Both the position numbers and the translations under genes were made by a program. The notes under the pieces are model-generated. The model searched no databases. It was not told the origin of the DNA and saw only the letters and a list, made by a program, of their open reading frames with translations. Positions 4,065 to 21,768 of a stretch of DNA of 21,768 nt are shown here, in pieces (the stretch's first letter is position 1; every line of letters starts with the position of its first letter). The stretch comes from a virus. The stretch spans positions 1-21,768 of IMG/VR virus record IMGVR_UViG_3300032289_002000, one strand, 5' to 3'.

Positions 4065-4072
4065 TATTTACA
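4065..4072 (-). promoter_or_regulatory. Late promoter-like box TGTAAATA before gp17
   Basis: The minus strand reads TGTAAATA, 7 of 8 matches to TATAAATA, followed by AAATT and the gp17 ATG. The 5-nt gap puts the predicted transcription start on the A of ATG. It lies directly downstream of the hairpin at 4074-4098, so gp17 would be reinitiated after termination of the upstream operon. Confidence 0.5.
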
Positions 4073-4073
4073 T

Positions 4074-4098
4074 AAAAAAAGCCTCCAAAGAGGCTTTT
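4074..4098 (-). terminator. Rho-independent terminator between the 538-aa gene and gp17
   Basis: A perfect 9-bp stem (4077-4085 with 4090-4098; aaaagcctc / gaggctttt) with loop CAAA. On the minus strand it is followed by further T residues, giving seven in a row. It lies 20 nt past the stop codon of the 4118-5734 gene and just before the gp17 start, so it should end transcripts from the right. The arms are A/T-flanked, so it may also work weakly on the plus strand. Confidence 0.85.
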
Positions 4099-6859: not shown

Positions 6860-7297
6860 TTATTTTTTTATTCCGGCAAATAAATCGTGTTCGTTTATTA
6901 CTCGAAATTGTATTCCGTGATTTCTGCAAAATGCTGCGGCTGCTGACCACTTGGCCATGTTTTTAACATACTGCGATTGATTGTAGGGATTTTTTCCTAC
7001 TTTTTCTCTCAACATTTGATTTGCTGGTTTTATTTCTACTAATTCAACATGTTTTTTCATGTTTCGATCTATGTAGGTTATTAAAAAATCGGGAACATAC
7101 ACTGTTTGTTTACCCGTTAACGGATCCCTATAGGGAATTTTTATAGATTCGCTGGCCCATTGTTGCACACTAGGATTATTATCACAAAACATGCAAAATG
7201 TAGTTTCCCAACTGCTACGACAAAATGGTAGTTTTGACCCTACATACTTTTCTGGGTTTTTAGGGGTATAGAATGATTGGCTATATTTTAAACTCAT
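6860..7297 (-). CDS. gp4: Head completion protein, TnsA/PD-(D/E)xK nuclease fold
   Basis: A 145-aa homologue of T4 gp4 (50/65 head-completion protein). T4 gp4 acts after packaging, at the portal vertex before tail joining. The N-terminus carries the family signature FYTPKNPEKYVG and CRSSWETTFCMFCDNNP. The nuclease core is visible as Glu31 (SSWE), Asp70 (YVPDF) and Glu88-x-Lys90 (LVEIKP), followed by a conserved helix YVKNMAKWSAAAAFCRNHG. All putative active-site residues are present. It starts 3 nt after the stop of the 549-aa structural gene, with no clear Shine-Dalgarno, so translation is probably coupled. Length is close to T4 gp4 (about 150 aa). Confidence 0.85.
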   Translation of the reverse strand: MSLKYSQSFYTPKNPEKYVGSKLPFCRSSWETTFCMFCDNNPSVQQWASESIKIPYRDPLTGKQTVYVPDFLITYIDRNMKKHVELVEIKPANQMLREKVGKNPYNQSQYVKNMAKWSAAAAFCRNHGIQFRVINEHDLFAGIKK

Positions 7298-8959: not shown

Positions 8960-10027
8960 TTAATTTATTTTCTTTTGTTGTGCATTGGTATTATTATTAC
9001 CAAATGCTGAGGTTATAGAAACTCCGATATTGTTTCTTACTTCTGGCCGATTTCCATTATTTTGTAAATCGGTTAAGGATCTGCTAATAGTTCTCTCTGT
9101 ATCACTTCTTATAGTTTTAGCATTTATCTTTTTTGCATCCTGCCATGTTTGGCCTGCATTAATTGCTACTCCTAAAAAATCCAATGGAGTTTTTGCATTC
9201 TTTAGGCTGCCATTTTCTCCGAATATATCGCTTACACCCCCTAATACTCCTGCTATACCTCCCGGACGTATAGGGCTAGGAGTGTTGTCATAATATACGG
9301 CAGAGAAAAATTTTGCATCTTTGTCTTTTTTAAGTTTTCCGTTTTTGTATAAAACTCCTTCGTAGGAAATTGTAGCTTTATTTGCTAATGCTCTTGTTTG
9401 GTCATCTTGGGACAAAGAATCGTGATCCCAAGCTGTTATTAAGGGGTTTAGCAATGTCATTTGTGTAAACTTTTGTTGATGCATTACATAAATGTCTATC
9501 GAATCAAAAAATCTGTTTATTTGTACACTATTTCCACCATAAAAAAAAGAATTACTATTAAATTTAGTATCTCTAAATGCTTCAGGTGGTGCTGACCTAG
9601 ATTTAACATCGTACCACCCATCGGCGTAATGATATTGATAATAATTTTTCCATAACCAATTAGTTATGTCACTATTATCGTCATGGAACGTCATTGTAAT
9701 ATCATTGTATTTTATATTTTTGTAAACTGGAACCCTCCTATTGTATTGATTAAGGATGTCAGTCGGCATTGTGAATTTAGGCATATCTAGTTTTTTAACT
9801 AATAGTCCTACGTCTTTCATTCCGGAGTTTTTCCAACCTTGATCGATTACAGCGTTTGGATTTATATTAAATGATACAAAATATAAAAATTGAACTTTTG
9901 GTGCACGAGCATATGTATTTGTAACATAAAGTCGATTAGCGTGTTGGTAATCATGAAAAAAAGATTTGTCCGAGCCAAATACTCCTTTTCCTACACCAGA
10001 TAAAAAATTAGTAAATGCATTAGCCAT
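8960..10027 (-). CDS. Tail tube-related baseplate/tube-initiator-like protein
   Basis: A 355-aa protein. After an N-terminal MANAFTNFLSGVGKGVFGSD, the segment VQFLYFVSFNINPNAV, LVKKLDMPKFTMPTDILNQY and NIKYNDITMTFHDDNSDITN follows the order typical of the gp19/gp54 tube fold: a first beta strand pair, a loop with K-x-x-x-x-P, then a strand pair ending in an exposed acidic loop and helix (WLWKNYYQYHYADGWY). It is longer than tube proteins and has a Gly-rich turn (PIRPGGIAGVLGGVSDIFG) and a polar C-terminus. Best guess: a gp54-like tube initiator or a second tube-like protein. It would have followed gp19 directly before the glycosyltransferase cassette came between them. No Shine-Dalgarno. A box ACTAAATA ends exactly 5 nt before ATG, with a terminator hairpin just beyond, the same layout as gp17. 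Confidence 0.65.
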   Translation of the reverse strand: MANAFTNFLSGVGKGVFGSDKSFFHDYQHANRLYVTNTYARAPKVQFLYFVSFNINPNAVIDQGWKNSGMKDVGLLVKKLDMPKFTMPTDILNQYNRRVPVYKNIKYNDITMTFHDDNSDITNWLWKNYYQYHYADGWYDVKSRSAPPEAFRDTKFNSNSFFYGGNSVQINRFFDSIDIYVMHQQKFTQMTLLNPLITAWDHDSLSQDDQTRALANKATISYEGVLYKNGKLKKDKDAKFFSAVYYDNTPSPIRPGGIAGVLGGVSDIFGENGSLKNAKTPLDFLGVAINAGQTWQDAKKINAKTIRSDTERTISRSLTDLQNNGNRPEVRNNIGVSITSAFGNNNTNAQQKKIN

Positions 10028-10032
10028 AGTAA

Positions 10033-10040
10033 TATTTAGT
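10033..10040 (-). promoter_or_regulatory. Late promoter-like box ACTAAATA before the tube-related gene
   Basis: The minus strand reads ACTAAATA, then TTACT, then ATG. It matches TATAAATA at 6 of 8 bases and has the same 5-nt gap to ATG as gp17 and gp13. The same box is preserved in repeat copy B (11009-11016), where the start codon is destroyed. Function as a promoter is inferred. Confidence 0.4.
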
Positions 10041-10041
10041 T

Positions 10042-10073
10042 AAGAAAAAACCGAGAAATCTCGGTTTTTTCTT
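10042..10073 (-). terminator. Perfect 15-bp hairpin terminator closing the glycosyltransferase cassette
   Basis: The arms 10042-10056 and 10059-10073 are exact reverse complements (aagaaaaaaccgaga), with CCGAG/CTCGG at the core and T6 after the stem on the minus strand. The A/T flanks make it symmetric, so it can act in both directions. It lies 25 nt beyond the stop of the epimerase remnant. Confidence 0.9.
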
Positions 10074-10097
10074 ATGCTACAGTAAATAATGCTTTCG

Positions 10098-10235
10098 TTA
10101 CATTAACCTTTCCACATTATCTCGATAACCGCCGGCTAGTGTATCATTACCCACAACGGTATGTCCTAGCTCTAACATTCTGTCGGCTAAATGACTTCCT
10201 AAAAATCCTGCTATTCCTGTTATAAAAATTTTCAT
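10098..10235 (-). pseudogene. Truncated NAD-dependent sugar epimerase/dehydratase, N-terminal 45 residues
   Basis: ATG at 10235 to TAA at 10098 encodes 45 residues starting MKIFITGIAGFLGSHLADRM. This is the first beta strand, Gly7-x2-Gly10-x2-Gly13 loop and helix of a Rossmann-fold short-chain dehydrogenase of the nucleotide-sugar epimerase type, continuing to VVGNDTLAGGYRDNVERLM. Family members normally run to about 300 residues, with a Tyr-x3-Lys catalytic pair that is absent here. After the stop there are only 24 nt before the terminator hairpin, so the rest has been deleted rather than frameshifted. The ATG follows the glycosyltransferase TAA after one base, so it would be translated by coupling. 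It could be a remnant of a full sugar-synthesis gene lost when the cassette was trimmed, or a retained small peptide. Confidence 0.8.
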
Positions 10236-10236
10236 A

Positions 10237-10923
10237 TTACCCTTTATATTGGGTCATAAAATTATACAATGCCTGCGTGTCAGATTGCAACCATCGTTGT
10301 GTTCTTGCCCAGAGCCAATGGTCTTTTTCTCTATTACAAAACTTGTCTTTGCGATCCCATAGTTCGTCTTTTATGTCAACAATTAACGGAGTTTTGACAT
10401 CTGTTACTTCAATGTATCTGCCCAGTTGTTTTGCAATGTCTCTATACCATGTATCAACATACCAGTGATGAAAGTGTGGAGGCAAGAAGTATCCTAATGC
10501 TCGTACCCAGTTTTTGTGTATGCAGAAATGCGGGCAATGATCTTTGGTTAAAAATCCACCATCCCAAGCTAGCCCATCCACTGACGGATAAACAAATGCA
10601 ATTTTATCTGGATAGGGTTCAAAGTATTTTAAAATTTTAATATCCCAATCCTGTGTCTCAAACCATCCATCGTGGCCAACCAAAAACAAATATTCATGTT
10701 TTGCCTGTTGAGCCATTATATTCCAGCTGTAGATTGGGCTACGATCTGGACCAACAGTAATATGTTTGCGATCAATTAACTCAAAATATTTTTGTAATTT
10801 TGGGTCGTCATCGTTAAGGTATAATATAATTTCAATATCGGTGCCTGCTAATGCTTTTGCAGTGTTCACCATCTTGGCGCATAACTCAGGTTGTCCTCTG
10901 CTAGGACATAGTATACTGATCAT
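10237..10923 (-). CDS. GT-A-type (family 2-like) glycosyltransferase
   Basis: A 228-aa protein beginning MISILCPSRGQPELCAKMVN, a typical first strand and nucleotide-binding loop of GT-A glycosyltransferases. It continues with IEIILYLNDDDPKLQKY and, at about 80-90, LFLVGHDGWFETQDWD, where the aspartate takes the place of the metal-binding DxD region. The C-terminal half is rich in Trp/His (HFHHWYVDTWYRDI, DHWLWARTQRW). No membrane segment. It probably transfers a sugar to a phage or host glycan; the donor and acceptor are not predictable. Start: AAGGA lies about 7 nt upstream of ATG. With the 45-aa epimerase remnant it forms a two-gene unit between two 58-bp repeats, with its own TTGACA-type promoter and terminator. 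It therefore looks like an inserted cassette in the tail gene run, not part of virion assembly. Confidence 0.7.
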   Translation of the reverse strand: MISILCPSRGQPELCAKMVNTAKALAGTDIEIILYLNDDDPKLQKYFELIDRKHITVGPDRSPIYSWNIMAQQAKHEYLFLVGHDGWFETQDWDIKILKYFEPYPDKIAFVYPSVDGLAWDGGFLTKDHCPHFCIHKNWVRALGYFLPPHFHHWYVDTWYRDIAKQLGRYIEVTDVKTPLIVDIKDELWDRKDKFCNREKDHWLWARTQRWLQSDTQALYNFMTQYKG

Positions 10924-10944
10924 TTAATTTCCTTATCATTTACT

Positions 10945-10981
10945 TATACTATAATAGAGTATACAACAATTTTTATGTCAA
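10945..10981 (-). promoter_or_regulatory. Sigma70-like promoter of the glycosyltransferase cassette, with inverted repeat
   Basis: The minus strand has TTGACA at 10981-10976. Candidate -10 elements are TCTATT (17-nt spacer, 10958-10953) and TATTAT (19-nt spacer, 10956-10951); neither is perfect. A 6-bp inverted repeat (tatact at 10945-10950, agtata at 10958-10963, 7-nt spacer) overlaps the -10 area and could be an operator. This would give the cassette a host-type promoter, distinct from the late boxes around it. Confidence 0.45.
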
Positions 10982-10994
10982 TTGTATTGGCAGA

Positions 10995-11052
10995 ATTAGC
11001 CTTAGCAATATTTAGTTAAGAAAAAACCGGGAAATCCCGGTTTAATCTTATG
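10995..11052. repeat. 58-bp direct repeat, copy B (dead start codon)
   Basis: Ungapped match to 10019-10076 with six differences. On the minus strand the position equal to the tail-gene ATG reads AAG, and the sequence after AAGGCTAAT diverges. It follows gp19 and contains that gene's terminator. Confidence 0.93.
11018..11049 (-). terminator. Terminator after the tail tube gene
   Basis: The core stem is 11024-11032 with 11035-11043 (aaaccggga / tcccggttt) and is followed by more T residues on the minus strand. It starts 20 nt past the gp19 stop. Relative to the copy at 10042-10073 the stem has a G-C pair in place of an A-T pair. Confidence 0.85.
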
Positions 11053-11068: not shown

Positions 11069-11701
11069 TTAACCTAAAGCAAGAGACCTAATTGTCCTTC
11101 CTACACTAACACCAAGTCCAGTTCTATTACCGGCTGAATCAACTTGTAAAGCATTGTCAAATGATATTGATAAATCTACAGTCATTGCATCCGATGCGGC
11201 AGAATAACTGGCTTCTTTATATGTAGCGCTATCTATATAACAACCGTTTAGTTCAAAAATTTCTAATACACCAGGTGTATAAGCCCCGTTGCCCCCATCT
11301 AGCAATTCTACTCGTGTTGTAAATTTATAATCAATACCGGATGCTGCACCGCTCTGTTCATAAAAATCGAATTGCTTCTGCATTTGTTCTCCGATTTTTT
11401 TACTAACAGTATTGGTTACATCATCTCTGATTGATAACTTGATGGCTTCGAAAGAATGTTTTCCAGCCAATTTTACAGTACTGTTGTAAACGCTAAGTTT
11501 TATTTGTTCAAATTTAACAACAGGACGACCTACACTTATTACCTGTTTAGTAAGTTCAGTAGTTGCCGCACCCGCAACTCCAAAATTATCTAGCGTAACT
11601 CTAAATCTATAAGTGAGTTTGGGCATCAACAGGCCTTGGCTTGCTGAACTTTGATTAGTTGCTAAAGGTACTGTAAACCTACTTAAACTTGCGATAGCCA
11701 T
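11069..11701 (-). CDS. gp19: Tail tube protein
   Basis: A 210-aa protein directly downstream of the sheath gene, in the T4 18-19 order. It is beta-rich: LTYRFRVTLDNFG, then LTKQVISVGRPVVKFEQIKL (the loop and strand signature of gp19-family tubes), STVKLAGKHSFEAIKLSIRD, a helix EQMQKQFDFYEQSG, and a final strand pair GVLEIFELNGCYIDS and MTVDLSISFDNALQV. Stacked hexamers of this family make the rigid tube inside the sheath. It is longer than T4 gp19 (163 aa), with an extended N-terminus and loops. Start: AAGGAGC lies 7 nt before ATG, and a late box GATAAATA lies 19 nt upstream, in the 28-bp gap after gp18. High-level expression is expected. Confidence 0.9.
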   Translation of the reverse strand: MAIASLSRFTVPLATNQSSASQGLLMPKLTYRFRVTLDNFGVAGAATTELTKQVISVGRPVVKFEQIKLSVYNSTVKLAGKHSFEAIKLSIRDDVTNTVSKKIGEQMQKQFDFYEQSGAASGIDYKFTTRVELLDGGNGAYTPGVLEIFELNGCYIDSATYKEASYSAASDAMTVDLSISFDNALQVDSAGNRTGLGVSVGRTIRSLALG

Positions 11702-11729: not shown

Positions 11730-14699
11730 TTATAATCCAGCCTGGATATCGCCGGTATTTTTAATACGCAACGGAATGTAGATGAATTCAACAGCCTTGA
11801 CTGGCTCAATTGCAACGTCTACATATAGTTCGCCTCTATCAATCCTTGCAGTAGTGTTATTGGTTGCATCACATACTACAATAAAATCATATAGGGCACG
11901 CTGACCTACCATTTCTATTAACAAACTCTCTACTGCGGCTTTGATTTCTCTGCGTGTTTGAGAATCATTAGGTTCAAACAAGAAAGGTTTAGCTAATATT
12001 CCTAATTGTCTTCTCAAGTATACAATTAGTCGAATTACATTGATGCGATCTAATGCACTGGCATTTTTTGCACGAGTATACTGTCCAAAATTAACTAATC
12101 CTACTCCAGGCAATGTAGCAATTGGATTAATTTTAACTTTTGCCATGACGTCTCGTATCCCTTGATGAAGAGAAGCAGTTTTAAATTCGCCTTCCATGTC
12201 AATATATCCAACACTTGATGCGTTTTCAATACCACCTCTTCGAGTTCCTGCCGGGGCAAACCAAGGATAACTCTTAGCATCACTATTAATAATTGTTCTT
12301 AACATCATATGGCTAGGAGGAACAACTATATTATTTCCAAAATTATCGTTGGTAAATCCGCTTGGATAAAATAGTCCTAAATATTCACTGTAACTCACTG
12401 CTCCTTCGTCGCCGTTGTCAAAGGCTAGCATAGAATTATTCCCCCATTCTGATAATGAAGTTCCAGAGGGCTCTAATCTAAATGGGGTGTCACCTACAAT
12501 AAATGCAACTTCGCCGCAATCAGTATTGAATGCAATCATATTTTGAATAACTTCTGGGTATCCAGGGCAAGCAATTAGATTAAATGCTAATGTTTCTACA
12601 TCTCTGATAGCACCGTTAGTATCTATTAACGATTTCAAAGAAGCAACTACTACCCCACGTTGAGCCATTCTTCCAAATCTTCCAGACCCGTCCTCGTTAA
12701 CACTGAAGTAAGATACCCAACGATTTGTATCGTAGAGAGCCATAGATTCGTTATTAAACCTTATATTTTTACCGCTATTTGCAAAAATGTTAATATAACC
12801 GGATATAAATTGCTTAACATTGTTTCCGCTTCTGCGAGTATTCCATAATCTTGTTCCTTGTGGATATAGTGCAGGATCTGGTGCATCAGGATCAAGATAA
12901 TTGCTAGATAACAAACTAATAATTGTGCTAGGAGTCATTGTAGTACCAGTTGTAGCATATCTAGCATCAGCAAATAACCATCCATTTGGACTAGTTTGAT
13001 CAGTTACATCTTGAATAATCCATTTATTAGCCGAAGAACTCCATACATATACCGTTTTTCCGTATTGTTCAGGATCGGAAGTGTCGATCCAGATGTCACC
13101 GTTAACTAGAGGAGTTCCATCGCTTTGACCAGTTGCAGAATTAGGTTCTAATGCACTAATAATAGGTCCTCCCGGGCTGCTGCTGGGGAATGCATTTTTA
13201 TAGCCAACCCAAGTTGTACCATTATGATACATAATATCAACTTCGCTAATCGTATTATTATACCACAATGCACCGTCATTGGGCAATGTGTAAGGAGTTG
13301 TAGATTTTGCTTCGTAAGACAATGGTCTCCAATTAGTTATTAGGTATGTTGCACTATGATTTAACGGAGCATTATAAACATTAGCAGTTCCCAGTTTAGT
13401 GACACTATTATAAGCAGTTACGCCCATACTAGAGAAAGGAGAGCCAATATCGTCGAGTATTTCAAACATTCCACCCTTTGTATGTGTGATTGTTAGAGTT
13501 GATGTTGCAGAATCGTATGCCGCGCTGATGTTTAAAATTCCTGCGACTCCGAGTGCAGTTGCAATTGTTTCTGTAAGATTTGCAGTAGGAGACCCCGGAA
13601 CATTAATAGTGGAAAATGAAGACCAAGAACCAGTACTAACTTGAGTTACCCTAATATCAAATGATGTAGCACCGGCGCTTTTTCCGGTTGACTGAATTGT
13701 TAGCGTAGTGGGCCCCGATGCAGATTTCCTCCAAACTTTAAAATCTGCAGATGCTATATCGTTGTAATCAGTTGCTACTATAACAGTCCCTACCGGAATA
13801 TTTGCTCCGCCTCCTACAGTATCTAGAGTATAGATTGCATTTTCTAAACTTCTATATACATTAGCAGTAGTCTTTTTCCATTGTCTAGTACTACCTTCAT
13901 AATAACTAACGTCCCAGTTTGAACCGTTGCCTGGGCTTGTTGTCTTGAGCCATACACTCCCGTTTGGAGTAGATGCTGTCCAATTAGGGTATCTGGTGTG
14001 AGGATTTATTACAAATTGTTTTCCACTATCGAACGTGTTGGCAACCTGGACCCAAGCACCAGACACTGCACCTGTCTTATAATAAAGTTGATTCGGATAT
14101 GTTTGCCCGTTATCAGAAGTAATGTATACTGCATAATCTCCCCGGCTACCAAAAGAATCTCTTGGGATGCCACCAGTGCTATTGGTTTGATAGTTATCGT
14201 TGTCGATTATTAAAGGAGTTTTTACGGTAAATGACAGCGTTGCTGTATTCCATTCGTTAATACCGAATGCGGTATTATCTGTGTCAATCCAATAAGTTCC
14301 CGCGACAGGAGGACCTACCGGTACATCGGTAGTAGGTTCTAACTCGGTTAGATTTACATCTGCTCTTACAACATATACTCTAGAAGTTACACCTAAAAGA
14401 CTATATGCTGTTTGCAATCCATATTCGTTAAGTTCACTACCATGAATCGGGTTTCCAGTGGTGCTGGTTTTAAAATCTGGAGTCCCAAATGTGTCAGTTA
14501 AGTCTCTCTGACTAGTTATAACCCAAACTCTTCCATTCTTTGCTGGGGTTGTGCCCTGAGCAATTCCTGTACCGGAAGCATTGGGTTTATCTTGTGCTGT
14601 TGCAACAAATACTATAGGTGTTGTTCCTGCAGGAGCAGGATTGTAAAAACTTTCGTCGATTACTGTAACTTCTATGCCAGGGGACTCTAAAATAGCCAT
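11730..14699 (-). CDS. gp18: Tail sheath protein with large inserted surface modules
   Basis: A 989-aa contractile sheath. The N-terminus MAILESPGIEVTVID and TPIVFVATAQDKP, and the C-terminal LIVYLRRQLGILAKPFLFEP, FIVVCDATNNT and VEFIYIPLRI, are standard T4-type sheath signatures that form the contracting core. T4 gp18 has 659 residues. The extra length is a central insertion (about 130-590) containing several modules with a Trp/Tyr-rich pattern: GTYWIDTD near 135, LYYKTGAVSGAWVQV near 200, GSVWLKT near 256, GALWYNNTISEVDIMYHNGT near 480 and GDIWIDTSD near 536. These are probably surface decorations. Start: TAGGAG lies 7 nt before ATG at 14699. A TTG just upstream at 14702 is rejected on spacing. 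A late box GATAAATA lies 28 nt upstream of the ATG. Confidence 0.97.
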   Translation of the reverse strand: MAILESPGIEVTVIDESFYNPAPAGTTPIVFVATAQDKPNASGTGIAQGTTPAKNGRVWVITSQRDLTDTFGTPDFKTSTTGNPIHGSELNEYGLQTAYSLLGVTSRVYVVRADVNLTELEPTTDVPVGPPVAGTYWIDTDNTAFGINEWNTATLSFTVKTPLIIDNDNYQTNSTGGIPRDSFGSRGDYAVYITSDNGQTYPNQLYYKTGAVSGAWVQVANTFDSGKQFVINPHTRYPNWTASTPNGSVWLKTTSPGNGSNWDVSYYEGSTRQWKKTTANVYRSLENAIYTLDTVGGGANIPVGTVIVATDYNDIASADFKVWRKSASGPTTLTIQSTGKSAGATSFDIRVTQVSTGSWSSFSTINVPGSPTANLTETIATALGVAGILNISAAYDSATSTLTITHTKGGMFEILDDIGSPFSSMGVTAYNSVTKLGTANVYNAPLNHSATYLITNWRPLSYEAKSTTPYTLPNDGALWYNNTISEVDIMYHNGTTWVGYKNAFPSSSPGGPIISALEPNSATGQSDGTPLVNGDIWIDTSDPEQYGKTVYVWSSSANKWIIQDVTDQTSPNGWLFADARYATTGTTMTPSTIISLLSSNYLDPDAPDPALYPQGTRLWNTRRSGNNVKQFISGYINIFANSGKNIRFNNESMALYDTNRWVSYFSVNEDGSGRFGRMAQRGVVVASLKSLIDTNGAIRDVETLAFNLIACPGYPEVIQNMIAFNTDCGEVAFIVGDTPFRLEPSGTSLSEWGNNSMLAFDNGDEGAVSYSEYLGLFYPSGFTNDNFGNNIVVPPSHMMLRTIINSDAKSYPWFAPAGTRRGGIENASSVGYIDMEGEFKTASLHQGIRDVMAKVKINPIATLPGVGLVNFGQYTRAKNASALDRINVIRLIVYLRRQLGILAKPFLFEPNDSQTRREIKAAVESLLIEMVGQRALYDFIVVCDATNNTTARIDRGELYVDVAIEPVKAVEFIYIPLRIKNTGDIQAGL

Positions 14700-14727
14700 C
14701 AATTTTCTCCTAATGGAACATTATTTT

Positions 14728-16571: not shown

Positions 16572-16579
16572 TATTTATC
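16572..16579 (-). promoter_or_regulatory. Late promoter box GATAAATA directly before gp13
   Basis: The minus strand reads GATAAATA, then CCTGT, then the gp13 ATG. The match to TATAAATA is 7 of 8. With the usual 5-7 nt distance from octamer to transcription start, the mRNA would start on the ATG. It is one of four similar cases in the window. Confidence 0.55.
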
Positions 16580-19245: not shown

Positions 19246-19667
19246 ATCAAATAGTGTGTGGTGGTGGACTGTTTTTTTCAGAGGATACTAAACGATTTCT
19301 TTTTTTACTGAGAAATCAAGGAAAAACTGCGGGAACTTGGGGTCTTGTAGGAGGCAAAAAAGAACCTGATGATCTTACAATCATAGATACTCTTCGAAGA
19401 GAAGTCGAAGAAGAGATTGGTAAAATCCCCAAAATTAAGAAAATTATACCTTTAGAATTGTTTACATCAACTGATCAAAATTTTCAATACAGTACATATG
19501 TATTGTTAGTTGAAAAAGAATTTATTCCGTTGTTGAATCGAGAGCACAGCGGCTATGCTTGGTGTAATTTTGACTGCTGGCCAAAACCTTTGCATCAAGG
19601 TGTAAAAAATAGTTTTAACAATCGAGTGATTCGTGCAAAATTAGAGTTGTTGCTGTCTTTATTTTAA
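19227..19667 (+). CDS. Nudix hydrolase
   Basis: A 146-aa single-domain protein with a Nudix box: Gly43 (GGKKEPDD) to Arg58-Glu59-Val60-Glu61-Glu62-Glu63-Ile64-Gly65. The metal-binding REVEEEIG part is intact. The spacer before it is one residue longer than the GX5EX7REUXEEXGU consensus, and the first Glu is Asp. An upstream strand (GLFFSEDTKRFLFLLRNQG, TWGLVGG) is typical. Such enzymes clear nucleotide diphosphate derivatives, and T4 carries NudE. The start is ambiguous: ATG at 19227 overlaps gp15 by 19 bases, while TTG at 19242 forms a TTGA stop-start overlap with gp15 and would lose five residues. The stop overlaps the fibre stop in a shared TTAA. Confidence 0.85.
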   Translation: MEIGSLNQIVCGGGLFFSEDTKRFLFLLRNQGKTAGTWGLVGGKKEPDDLTIIDTLRREVEEEIGKIPKIKKIIPLELFTSTDQNFQYSTYVLLVEKEFIPLLNREHSGYAWCNFDCWPKPLHQGVKNSFNNRVIRAKLELLLSLF

Positions 19668-21768
19668 GTGTGTTCTAATTTACATAATCTATTGTCGACT
19701 GCTTCTATTTTATTGTTTAGGTCTTTAACTGCTTCTATTAAGAGTGCTGTGAGATTTCCGTAGTCAATACTTAATATCGGTTCTCTAGTCGTTCCATCGG
19801 GGTCTGTTGGAACAGTTTCAATTACAACTTCTGGAATAATTGGAAGAACTTCTTGTGCAATTACTCCTATTTTTTTAGTTTTAGAAGAATCGTCAGTTCG
19901 ATTATAATATACTCCCCGCAATTTTAATGTTTTGTCTAGTGCATTGTCAATTTGCACAATGTTTTCTTTAAATTTAATATCTGAAAATGCTGTGACGTTA
20001 CCAGCAAAAGTACCAGCACCTCCAAACTGAGCACTATTGTTAGTTAAATCTACAACATACGGCCAAAGGCCTGTACTATTTGTTGCCCATCCATTGGCAC
20101 CATCCGATCTTAAAATATAAAAAAGATTACTATTGTTGTGAATTACACCACCAGTTTGGTCACTGTCGCTAAAAATAATAGTTGGATAAGTTCCCCGTAA
20201 CTTAATCGTTGGGCCTTCAGTATTAATGATTGTAAAAGCAGCCGAACTAGATACTCCGTTACCACTACTGTTACCGTAAAGAATCTGCCCTGATGTAGCG
20301 CTTACTGGAGCAATCTCTCCTTGTACGCCTATTTTTCCCTGAAGTCCTTGCTTTCCCTGTATACCCTGTACACCTTGATCACCTCTAACGCCCTGTAGAC
20401 CTTGATCACCTTTAATGCCCTGCTGACCTTGCCATCCCTGAAAACCTTGCTGAGAGGCTCGTTCCCCTTGGAATCCTTGTTCTCCTTGAATACCTTGCTT
20501 TCCTTGTGTACCTTGATCACCTTTAATGCCCTGCTCACCCTGTAATCCTTGCTTTCCTTGTAGTCCTTGCCGTCCTTGTAGTCCTTGCTCGCCTTGTATC
20601 CCTTGTGGTCCCTGCTGACCTTGTAGACCTTGTCGCCCTTGGAATCCTTGAAGTCCTTGCTTTCCTTGTTCTCCCTGAATACCTTGAATAGGGGGGCCTT
20701 GTAGTCCTTGTAGGCCTTGTAATCCTTGGTGCCCTTGCAGTCCTTGGTGCCCTTGCAGTCCTTGTCGACCTTGTTCTCCTTGTAGTCCCTGTTTTCCTTG
20801 AAGTCCTTGCTTTCCTTGTTCTCCTTGAATCGGGGGACCTTGCATTCCTTGTAGACCTTGTAATCCTTGGTGCCCCTGAAGACCCTGAAGACCCTGCAGT
20901 CCTTGTAGTCCTTGTAGTCCCTGCAGTCCTTGTAGTCCCTGCAGTCCTTGCTTTCCTTGTTCTCCTTGAATCGGAGTACCTTGCAGGCCTTGAAGTCCTT
21001 GTAATCCTTGTAGGCCTTGCTTTCCTTGAAGACCTTGTTCTCCTTGTTTTCCTTGAAGACCCTGCAGTCCTTGTAGTCCCTGAAGACCTTGTAATCCCTG
21101 CTCTCCTTGATTTCCTTGGATAGGAGCTCCCTGCAATCCCTGCAATCCCTGTAGTCCTTGTTCTCCTTGGCGCCCTTGTAGTCCTTGTAGACCTTGTAAT
21201 CCTTGGTGCCCTTGCAGTCCTTGCAGTCCTTGCTTTCCTTGTATACCTTGTAGTCCTTGCAGTCCTTGGAGACCTTGTGTCCCTTGATCTCCTTGGAGAG
21301 GAGGTCCCTGCATTCCTTGCAGTCCTTGTAGCCCTTGTAGCCCTTGTATCCCTTGAAAACCTTGAAAACCTTGCTTTCCTTGTATACCTTGCTCACCTTG
21401 TAAACCTTGTTCTCCCTGTTCTCCTTGAATAGGAGCCCCTTGAATTCCTTGCAGTCCTTGCAGTCCTTGTAGCCCTTGCGTACCTTGCTGTCCTTGAAAA
21501 CCTTGAGAACCTTGTTTTCCTTGAGAACCTTGTTTTCCTTGTAGGCCTTGTTCTCCTTGTTGCCCTTGAATCGGGGGACCTTGCATTCCTTGCATTCCCT
21601 GCATTCCCTGCATTCCCTGAAGTCCTTGTAAGCCTTGTGTACCCTGGAATCCTTGTCGCCCTTGGATACCTTGAAATCCTTGCTGTGAGGCTCGCTCTCC
21701 TTGAAATCCCTGAAGTCCTAATGGTCCCTGGACCCCTTGTGATCCCTGGGCGCCTGCTCCTTGAAACC
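19664..21768 (-). CDS. Collagen-like tail fibre with S74 intramolecular chaperone (partial N-terminus)
   Basis: 700 residues lie in the window, and the reading frame continues past base 21768 without a stop, so the N-terminus is missing. The ATG at 21613 is internal. More than 480 residues are Gly-X-Gln triplets, mainly GLQ, a collagen-type triple helix. Runs are broken by x-P-I-Q segments ([20 protein letters not shown]) every 44-59 residues and twice by GERASQQG. The C-terminal part has a short beta-rich region ([32 protein letters not shown]) and an S74 domain: [48 protein letters not shown] and a trailing coiled coil. The Ser codon at 19982-19984 and Lys at 19967-19969 match the SDxxxK dyad, so self-cleavage before Ser after trimer folding is predicted. 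Probably a receptor-binding fibre or whisker. Confidence 0.93.
20318..21768 (-). repeat. Gly-X-Gln collagen-coding 9-bp repeat tract
   Basis: About 1.45 kb of nested 9-bp units of the type caaggactt on the minus strand, encoding Gln-Gly-Leu and variants. The tract continues beyond the window. Longer blocks (for example those around the x-P-I-Q interruptions) recur, pointing to growth by unequal exchange. The periodic composition leaves a second frame open for 1 kb (20329-21396). Confidence 0.9.

Follow-up and report, generated by a model that had tools for sequence, protein, structure and literature searches.

Why does a sugar-transferase gene sit between two tail genes of a phage, bounded on both sides by nearly the same 58 bp? 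The question is raised by a 21,768-nt stretch of viral DNA (the whole of positions 1 to 21,768 of IMG/VR record IMGVR_UViG_3300032289_002000, hereafter the window), which derives from a large T4-like phage. An initial annotation had proposed that a cassette entered an ancestral tail-gene junction, which was duplicated in the process, and that the resulting repeats form a loadable slot for exchangeable genes. The features needed to answer the question are as follows.

4065-4098, minus strand: second module (hairpin, TAAATA, five bases, ATG), which precedes the large terminase gene and shares the architecture of the junction modules but not their sequence
8960-10027, minus strand: second tail-tube-like protein, 355 aa, downstream of the site that is empty in relatives (phrog_13438/phrog_4542, tail tube)
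10019-10076, minus strand: module copy A, comprising a terminator hairpin, a CTAAATA late promoter and the start of the tube-like gene, placed as in 174 distinct junctions of relatives
10033-10039, minus strand: late promoter box CTAAATA of copy A, 5 nt ahead of the ATG, with a predicted leaderless start
10041-10074, minus strand: hairpin terminator of copy A, with a 15-bp stem and a U-rich 3′ arm (−19.8 kcal/mol, z −7.9)
10077-10098, minus strand: remnant of the gene3 start, about 22 bp, its ATG changed to ACG, abutting copy A
10098-10235, minus strand: epimerase remnant of 45 codons, 40 N-terminal codons continuing in frame into the final codons and the stop
10237-10923, minus strand: intact GT2-like glycosyltransferase, 228 aa (phrog_14945, E 5e-28)
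10976-10981, minus strand: TTGACA element at the cassette's upstream end, corresponding to a promoter in a related operon (L085), its spacing degraded
10982-10994: 13-nt linker that joins copy B to the TTGACA element, without known source
10995-11052, minus strand: module copy B, recognized from the repeat and its sequence, with hairpin and CTAAATA retained and a dead start, AAG, at 11001-11003
11009-11015, minus strand: late promoter box CTAAATA of copy B, the putative late promoter of the glycosyltransferase
11017-11050, minus strand: hairpin terminator of copy B, differing from that of copy A by a compensating change in the stem (−19.4 kcal/mol, z −5.0)
11069-11701, minus strand: gp19-like tail tube protein, 210 aa, the upstream neighbour (phrog_4542, E 8.6e-48)
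11730-14702: sheath gene

The duplicated junction and its ancestral state

A repeat search over the window returned the two modules as a gapless direct pair of 58 nt with 52 identities (90%) at a spacing of 976, agreeing with the annotated coordinates and orientation, while the runner-up among non-repetitive pairs reached only 34 nt at 74%. Read on the minus strand, both copies run through the hairpin, CTAAATA and five bases, and then into ATG GCT AAT in copy A or AAG GCT AAT in copy B, as had been annotated, and CTAAATATT is present in both. Of the six differences between them, two are matched changes on opposite sides of the stem (CCGAG..CTCGG versus CCGGG..CCCGG) and so preserve the hairpin of copy B, two lie 5′ of the stem core, one falls in the spacer and one has removed the ATG. 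Both hairpins are strong, since shuffled controls of copies A and B fold at −4.5 and −7.6 kcal/mol, respectively. When 65 nt were compared for 6,931 pairs of TAAATA sites, each pair lying within one contig, in 1.18 Mb of DNA from the phage group, long relatives included, the window pair scored 53/65 and the runner-up, with its members 40 kb apart, 40/65; no second comparable duplicated module was found among these pairs, and a 35-bp pattern fitting copies A and B had no other match in the viral collection.

The ancestral state was read from relatives, collected as a first set and by two further scans. Among them are 230 loci with both genes, in each of which the second tube-like gene comes after the tail-tube gene. 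In 222 of these the two are separated by one short junction, its gap being less than about 130 nt, with no cassette; in the first set the gene order is that of the window and 44-89 nt separate the two genes. The glycosyltransferase was found at the junction in none of the 238 relative loci checked for it. Among 174 distinct junctions, all contain TAAATA, which lies 4-6 nt from the start in 166, and a simple detector called a hairpin in 170. In copy B, 65 nt separate the dead start from the stop of the tube gene, within the range of relatives (mostly 59-75 nt), and copy A stands immediately ahead of the tube-like gene; thus, the ancestral junction is preserved on its two sides. In comparison with the junctions of 78 relatives, the two copies found best matches of only 37 and 36 of 58, far below the 52 that they share with each other, indicating that the duplication occurred in the window lineage. 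The annotated sequence of events, namely an ancestral order of tube gene, terminator and promoter, and tube-like gene, followed by entry of a cassette with duplication of the junction and a dead start left beside the tube gene, is therefore borne out. Neither finding that the annotation had named as speaking against it, a cassette shared by all relatives with unrelated flanks or a lack of relatives with a single module, was encountered.

A decaying fragment of a glycan operon

The glycosyltransferase has its nearest relative in L085 (80% identity), followed by L086 and L087 (75% each). In L085 the gene belongs to an intact operon (42949-46397), in which a TTGACA-17-TATACT promoter is followed by the glycosyltransferase, an epimerase (PF01370), gene3 and gene4. 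DNA likeness between the window and L085 amounts to 75% over 810 bp, running from the glycosyltransferase into the epimerase and ending about 40 codons in, and it returns for 33 bp (29/33) at the epimerase end and gene3 start. Because the likeness stops and then resumes, the window epimerase is read as an in-frame deletion of about 0.88 kb followed by a gene3 stub; what is left of it shares 85% identity with the L085 epimerase over residues 1-41 of the latter. The epimerase remnant of the initial annotation is thus real and its glycosyltransferase intact, while of its TTGACA promoter only the element itself stood: the best −10 candidate, TATTAT, follows at a poor spacing of 19 nt, making early transcription from it doubtful.

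The 51-kb record from which L085 comes (G001) carries a sheath of the same family (E 3e-217) and the same order of the tail block. Its own tube/tube-like junction is empty and single-module, and its glycan operon lies about 31 kb away. As the same kind of phage with the operon intact, it identifies the cassette as a glycan-operon fragment of this phage group; the actual donor is not L085 itself. No module was found beside the glycosyltransferase in L085, L086 or L087, and one scan of genome contigs for a bacterial source returned no relative.

Family 2 membership of the transferase is borderline by profile, the window protein matching PF00535 at E 0.003, below the curated cut-off, and the L085 protein passing it narrowly (23.5 bits versus 23.3). 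A search against solved structures gave no match, and the AlphaFold model (mean pLDDT 48) is too poor for a fold reading. At the codon level, dN was 0.141 between the window and L085 and 0.147 between the operon-borne L085 and L086 genes, with silent sites saturated; the window gene thus appears to show no sign of relaxed constraint, a picture that a very recent insertion would give as well. The 10% divergence between copies A and B indicates that the event is probably not brand-new.

Origin of the cassette and the fate of other cargo

Considering the demonstrated empty sites, duplication, donor-type operon, decay and intact glycosyltransferase, we regard it as highly probable that the locus records a single past insertion, partly decayed since, in which glycan-operon DNA, from the phage's own genome or from that of a relative, came to lie in the junction with the module repeated on both sides and the two copies serving separately. 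The starting state would have been a tube gene, one 58-bp module with its intrinsic terminator, gp55-type CTAAATA and leaderless start, and the tube-like gene. The glycosyltransferase, epimerase and gene3 start would then have been copied or recombined into the junction, with the module doubled around them. The entry mechanism left no direct signature; a likely route is a template switch or ectopic exchange in recombination-dependent replication, with re-entry about 58 bp upstream, which would yield a direct duplication of arbitrary length and would need no transposase. Copy A would have kept serving the tube-like gene, while copy B would terminate the tube transcript and offer a late promoter, having lost its useless start codon. 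With an intact ATG, copy B is predicted to open a 19-codon frame ending just before the glycosyltransferase, a frame that disappeared with the ATG. Epimerase and gene3 would subsequently have been deleted to remnants and the glycosyltransferase retained, probably transcribed late from the copy B box through a leader of about 80 nt that carries a Shine-Dalgarno sequence (AAGGA), and insulated by two terminators. Its target may be a glycan of the host surface or of the phage.

Whether the junction is a loadable slot was judged from the other cargo found there. Eight of the 230 relatives carry inserts of 280-754 nt of at least four kinds. A 215-aa methyltransferase-like gene is placed between hairpin and promoter in two diverged relatives (L166:2495-3139 and L170:4695-5339, 70% identical, one of the two matching PF13489 weakly at E 3.5e-4). 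L217, L218 and L221 carry a gene for a 98-aa membrane/coiled-coil-like protein, L263 and L271 one for a membrane peptide of 39 aa, and L270 one for a protein of 122 aa whose N-terminus is signal-like. L270 and L271 have flanks in common and different cargo. Except in the L217 group, the late promoter still stands about 5-6 nt ahead of the tube-like gene in all cargo-bearing relatives. None of the eight has duplicated flanks or modules around its cargo. At the neighbouring sheath-tube gap, two of 232 relatives (L152 and L177) carry true inserts, genes of 513-552 aa on the opposite strand that were assigned by eye as endonuclease-like, and PA5oct has a Hef-like homing endonuclease in the same place (NC_071039, 121410-123026). 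An apparent sheath-tube insert in L025 was rejected as its gap reads as sheath C-terminus, and the long distance from the tube-like gene to the next gene in L024 and L048-L050 is not an insertion, the tube-like ORF being 1094 aa long in L049/G005. With shared descent counted, the excess of 8/230 over 2/232 is not convincing. Together with the lack of duplicated modules around the other cargo, this means that the repeats are not a general loading device: the junction accepts cargo repeatedly, and the direct repeats arose as a side effect of a single insertion. The slot proposal is therefore supported in part, as to the place and its varied cargo, and is not supported as to the part given to the repeats.

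A reversible version of the same idea, in which the repeats are maintained as recombination sites for exchange or loss of cargo, would draw on their 90% identity and on the varied cargo at the same junction, but the absence of repeats from the other eight junctions and of any further duplicated module in 1.18 Mb, the short uninterrupted identity of copies already 10% apart, the failure to see any excised form and a cassette decaying in place make it quite unlikely. Two direct copies at exactly the ancestral spacing would also be left by one crossover at the module with a donor, circular or linear, that bore its own module beside the glycan genes; this is unlikely too, given that the three operon-borne relatives have none there and that the 35-bp two-copy pattern is unique in the viral collection. 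That the contig is metagenomic and the nearest kin of its cassette lie in another contig might suggest an assembly chimera of two phages, which we consider extremely improbable, as it would require two separate junctions and a source with the module beside the operon, which L085-L087 do not provide, and would have to account for copies that differ at six sites, stem compensation included. A transposon was rejected since the cassette holds no transposase, the direct repeats are 58 bp long and the cassette ends match operon DNA; homing-endonuclease origin was rejected likewise, with no such gene in the cassette and repeats of that length.

The closest described parallel is that of the PeSLs, promoter early-stem-loop composites of T4-like phages (Arbiol et al. 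2010 and Comeau et al. 2014, as cited in PMC4503421), which passages of PMC4503421 report to mediate shuffling. In both systems, as far as those passages describe them, a short composite of promoter and terminator lies where one gene ends and the next begins and is tied to insertion of an unrelated gene, and in the window hairpin and CTAAATA flank the foreign gene on both sides. That a mobile unit of this type spread and carried genes by homology of its copies is nevertheless very unlikely here. Where many similar copies across a shuffling region would be expected of PeSLs, a single pair was found in 1.18 Mb; the motif has no further copies in the window or long relatives, and other hairpin-TAAATA modules of the group have different sequences. 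The repeat moreover contains a gp55-type late promoter rather than an early one and includes the start codon of the structural gene that follows, whereas TTGACA lies outside it, in the cassette. A phage moron resembles the single insertion favoured here in being a non-structural gene within a late structural block, with terminators on both sides and its own promoter, but the cassette is a piece of a glycan operon of the same phage group, the junction is duplicated and no prophage is involved. The sheath-tube inserts of PA5oct, L152 and L177 share a foreign gene at a neighbouring junction of the same tail block; they differ in encoding an endonuclease able to drive insertion, of which the cassette has none. 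The locus thus displays accessory-gene uptake inside the structural block of a lytic T4-like phage, with empty site, donor-type operon, duplicated junction and decay all visible.

Late promoters and predicted leaderless starts

T4 late promoters span −13 to −6 and those of Aeh1 use CTAAATA from −12, according to passages of PMC1524935, the Aeh1 box given there being identical to that of the window; the same passages make no mention of a leaderless placement. A box ending 5 nt ahead of the ATG would accordingly make the A of this ATG the +1 position. Across four records (375 kb), 27 of 248 TAAATA sites were followed at exactly 5 nt by an ATG opening at least 80 codons, as compared with at most about 1% with an ATG at this distance for permuted hexamers (n = 14). 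Shine-Dalgarno sequences were found at 0 of 35 starts lying 4-6 nt from TAAATA versus 30 of 58 at 15-44 nt. A gene for a gp55-like sigma is present in three long relatives (G004, G005 and G006), so that box and sigma, the pairing that defines a T4-type late promoter, both occur, the sigma having been seen in the relatives' genomes. In the window, TAAATA lies 5-6 nt ahead of an ATG devoid of a Shine-Dalgarno at four places on the minus strand, that is, at the copy A box and at 4065-4070, 2476-2481 and 16572-16577, and the hairpin-TAAATA-N5-ATG arrangement also precedes the large terminase gene in G001, G004 and G005.

The T4 gene 19-gene 20 junction is similar in having a hairpin and a TATAAATA late promoter after the tube gene, but T4 has a 26-nt leader with a Shine-Dalgarno and a portal gene downstream, whereas in the window group the spacing is 5 nt, a Shine-Dalgarno is lacking and the gene downstream is a second tube-like one. 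Throughout the T4 structural region, TATAAATA is never 4-6 nt from starts and clusters at 26-28 nt. The sequence arrangement strongly suggests that the late mRNAs of the tube-like gene, terminase and other structural genes would be leaderless; a literature search, not exhaustive, found no description of leaderless late initiation in T4-like phages. The group is widespread, and conserved across it is a compact late-gene switch with a T4-type promoter exactly 5 nt ahead of the start codon; should the mRNA indeed lack a leader, phages with a gp55-type sigma would translate major virion genes without Shine-Dalgarno recognition.

It is tentatively conceivable, if rather doubtful, that the junction acts as a natural safe harbour and that a major class of late virion genes is leaderless-translated. 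Since some 60 bp hold terminator, late promoter and leaderless start together, the tail gene downstream would be expressed independently of whatever lies upstream, and cargo such as a sugar transferase, a methyltransferase-like gene or membrane proteins might thus be accepted repeatedly without harm to virion assembly.

Elsewhere in the window, 19664-21613 encodes a 649-aa protein with collagen-like QGxQG repeats and a C-terminus resembling a self-cleaving fibre chaperone, and the head-closure protein at 6860-7297 (phrog_218) also matches a TnsA-like endonuclease N-terminal family (PF08722, E 1.4e-22).
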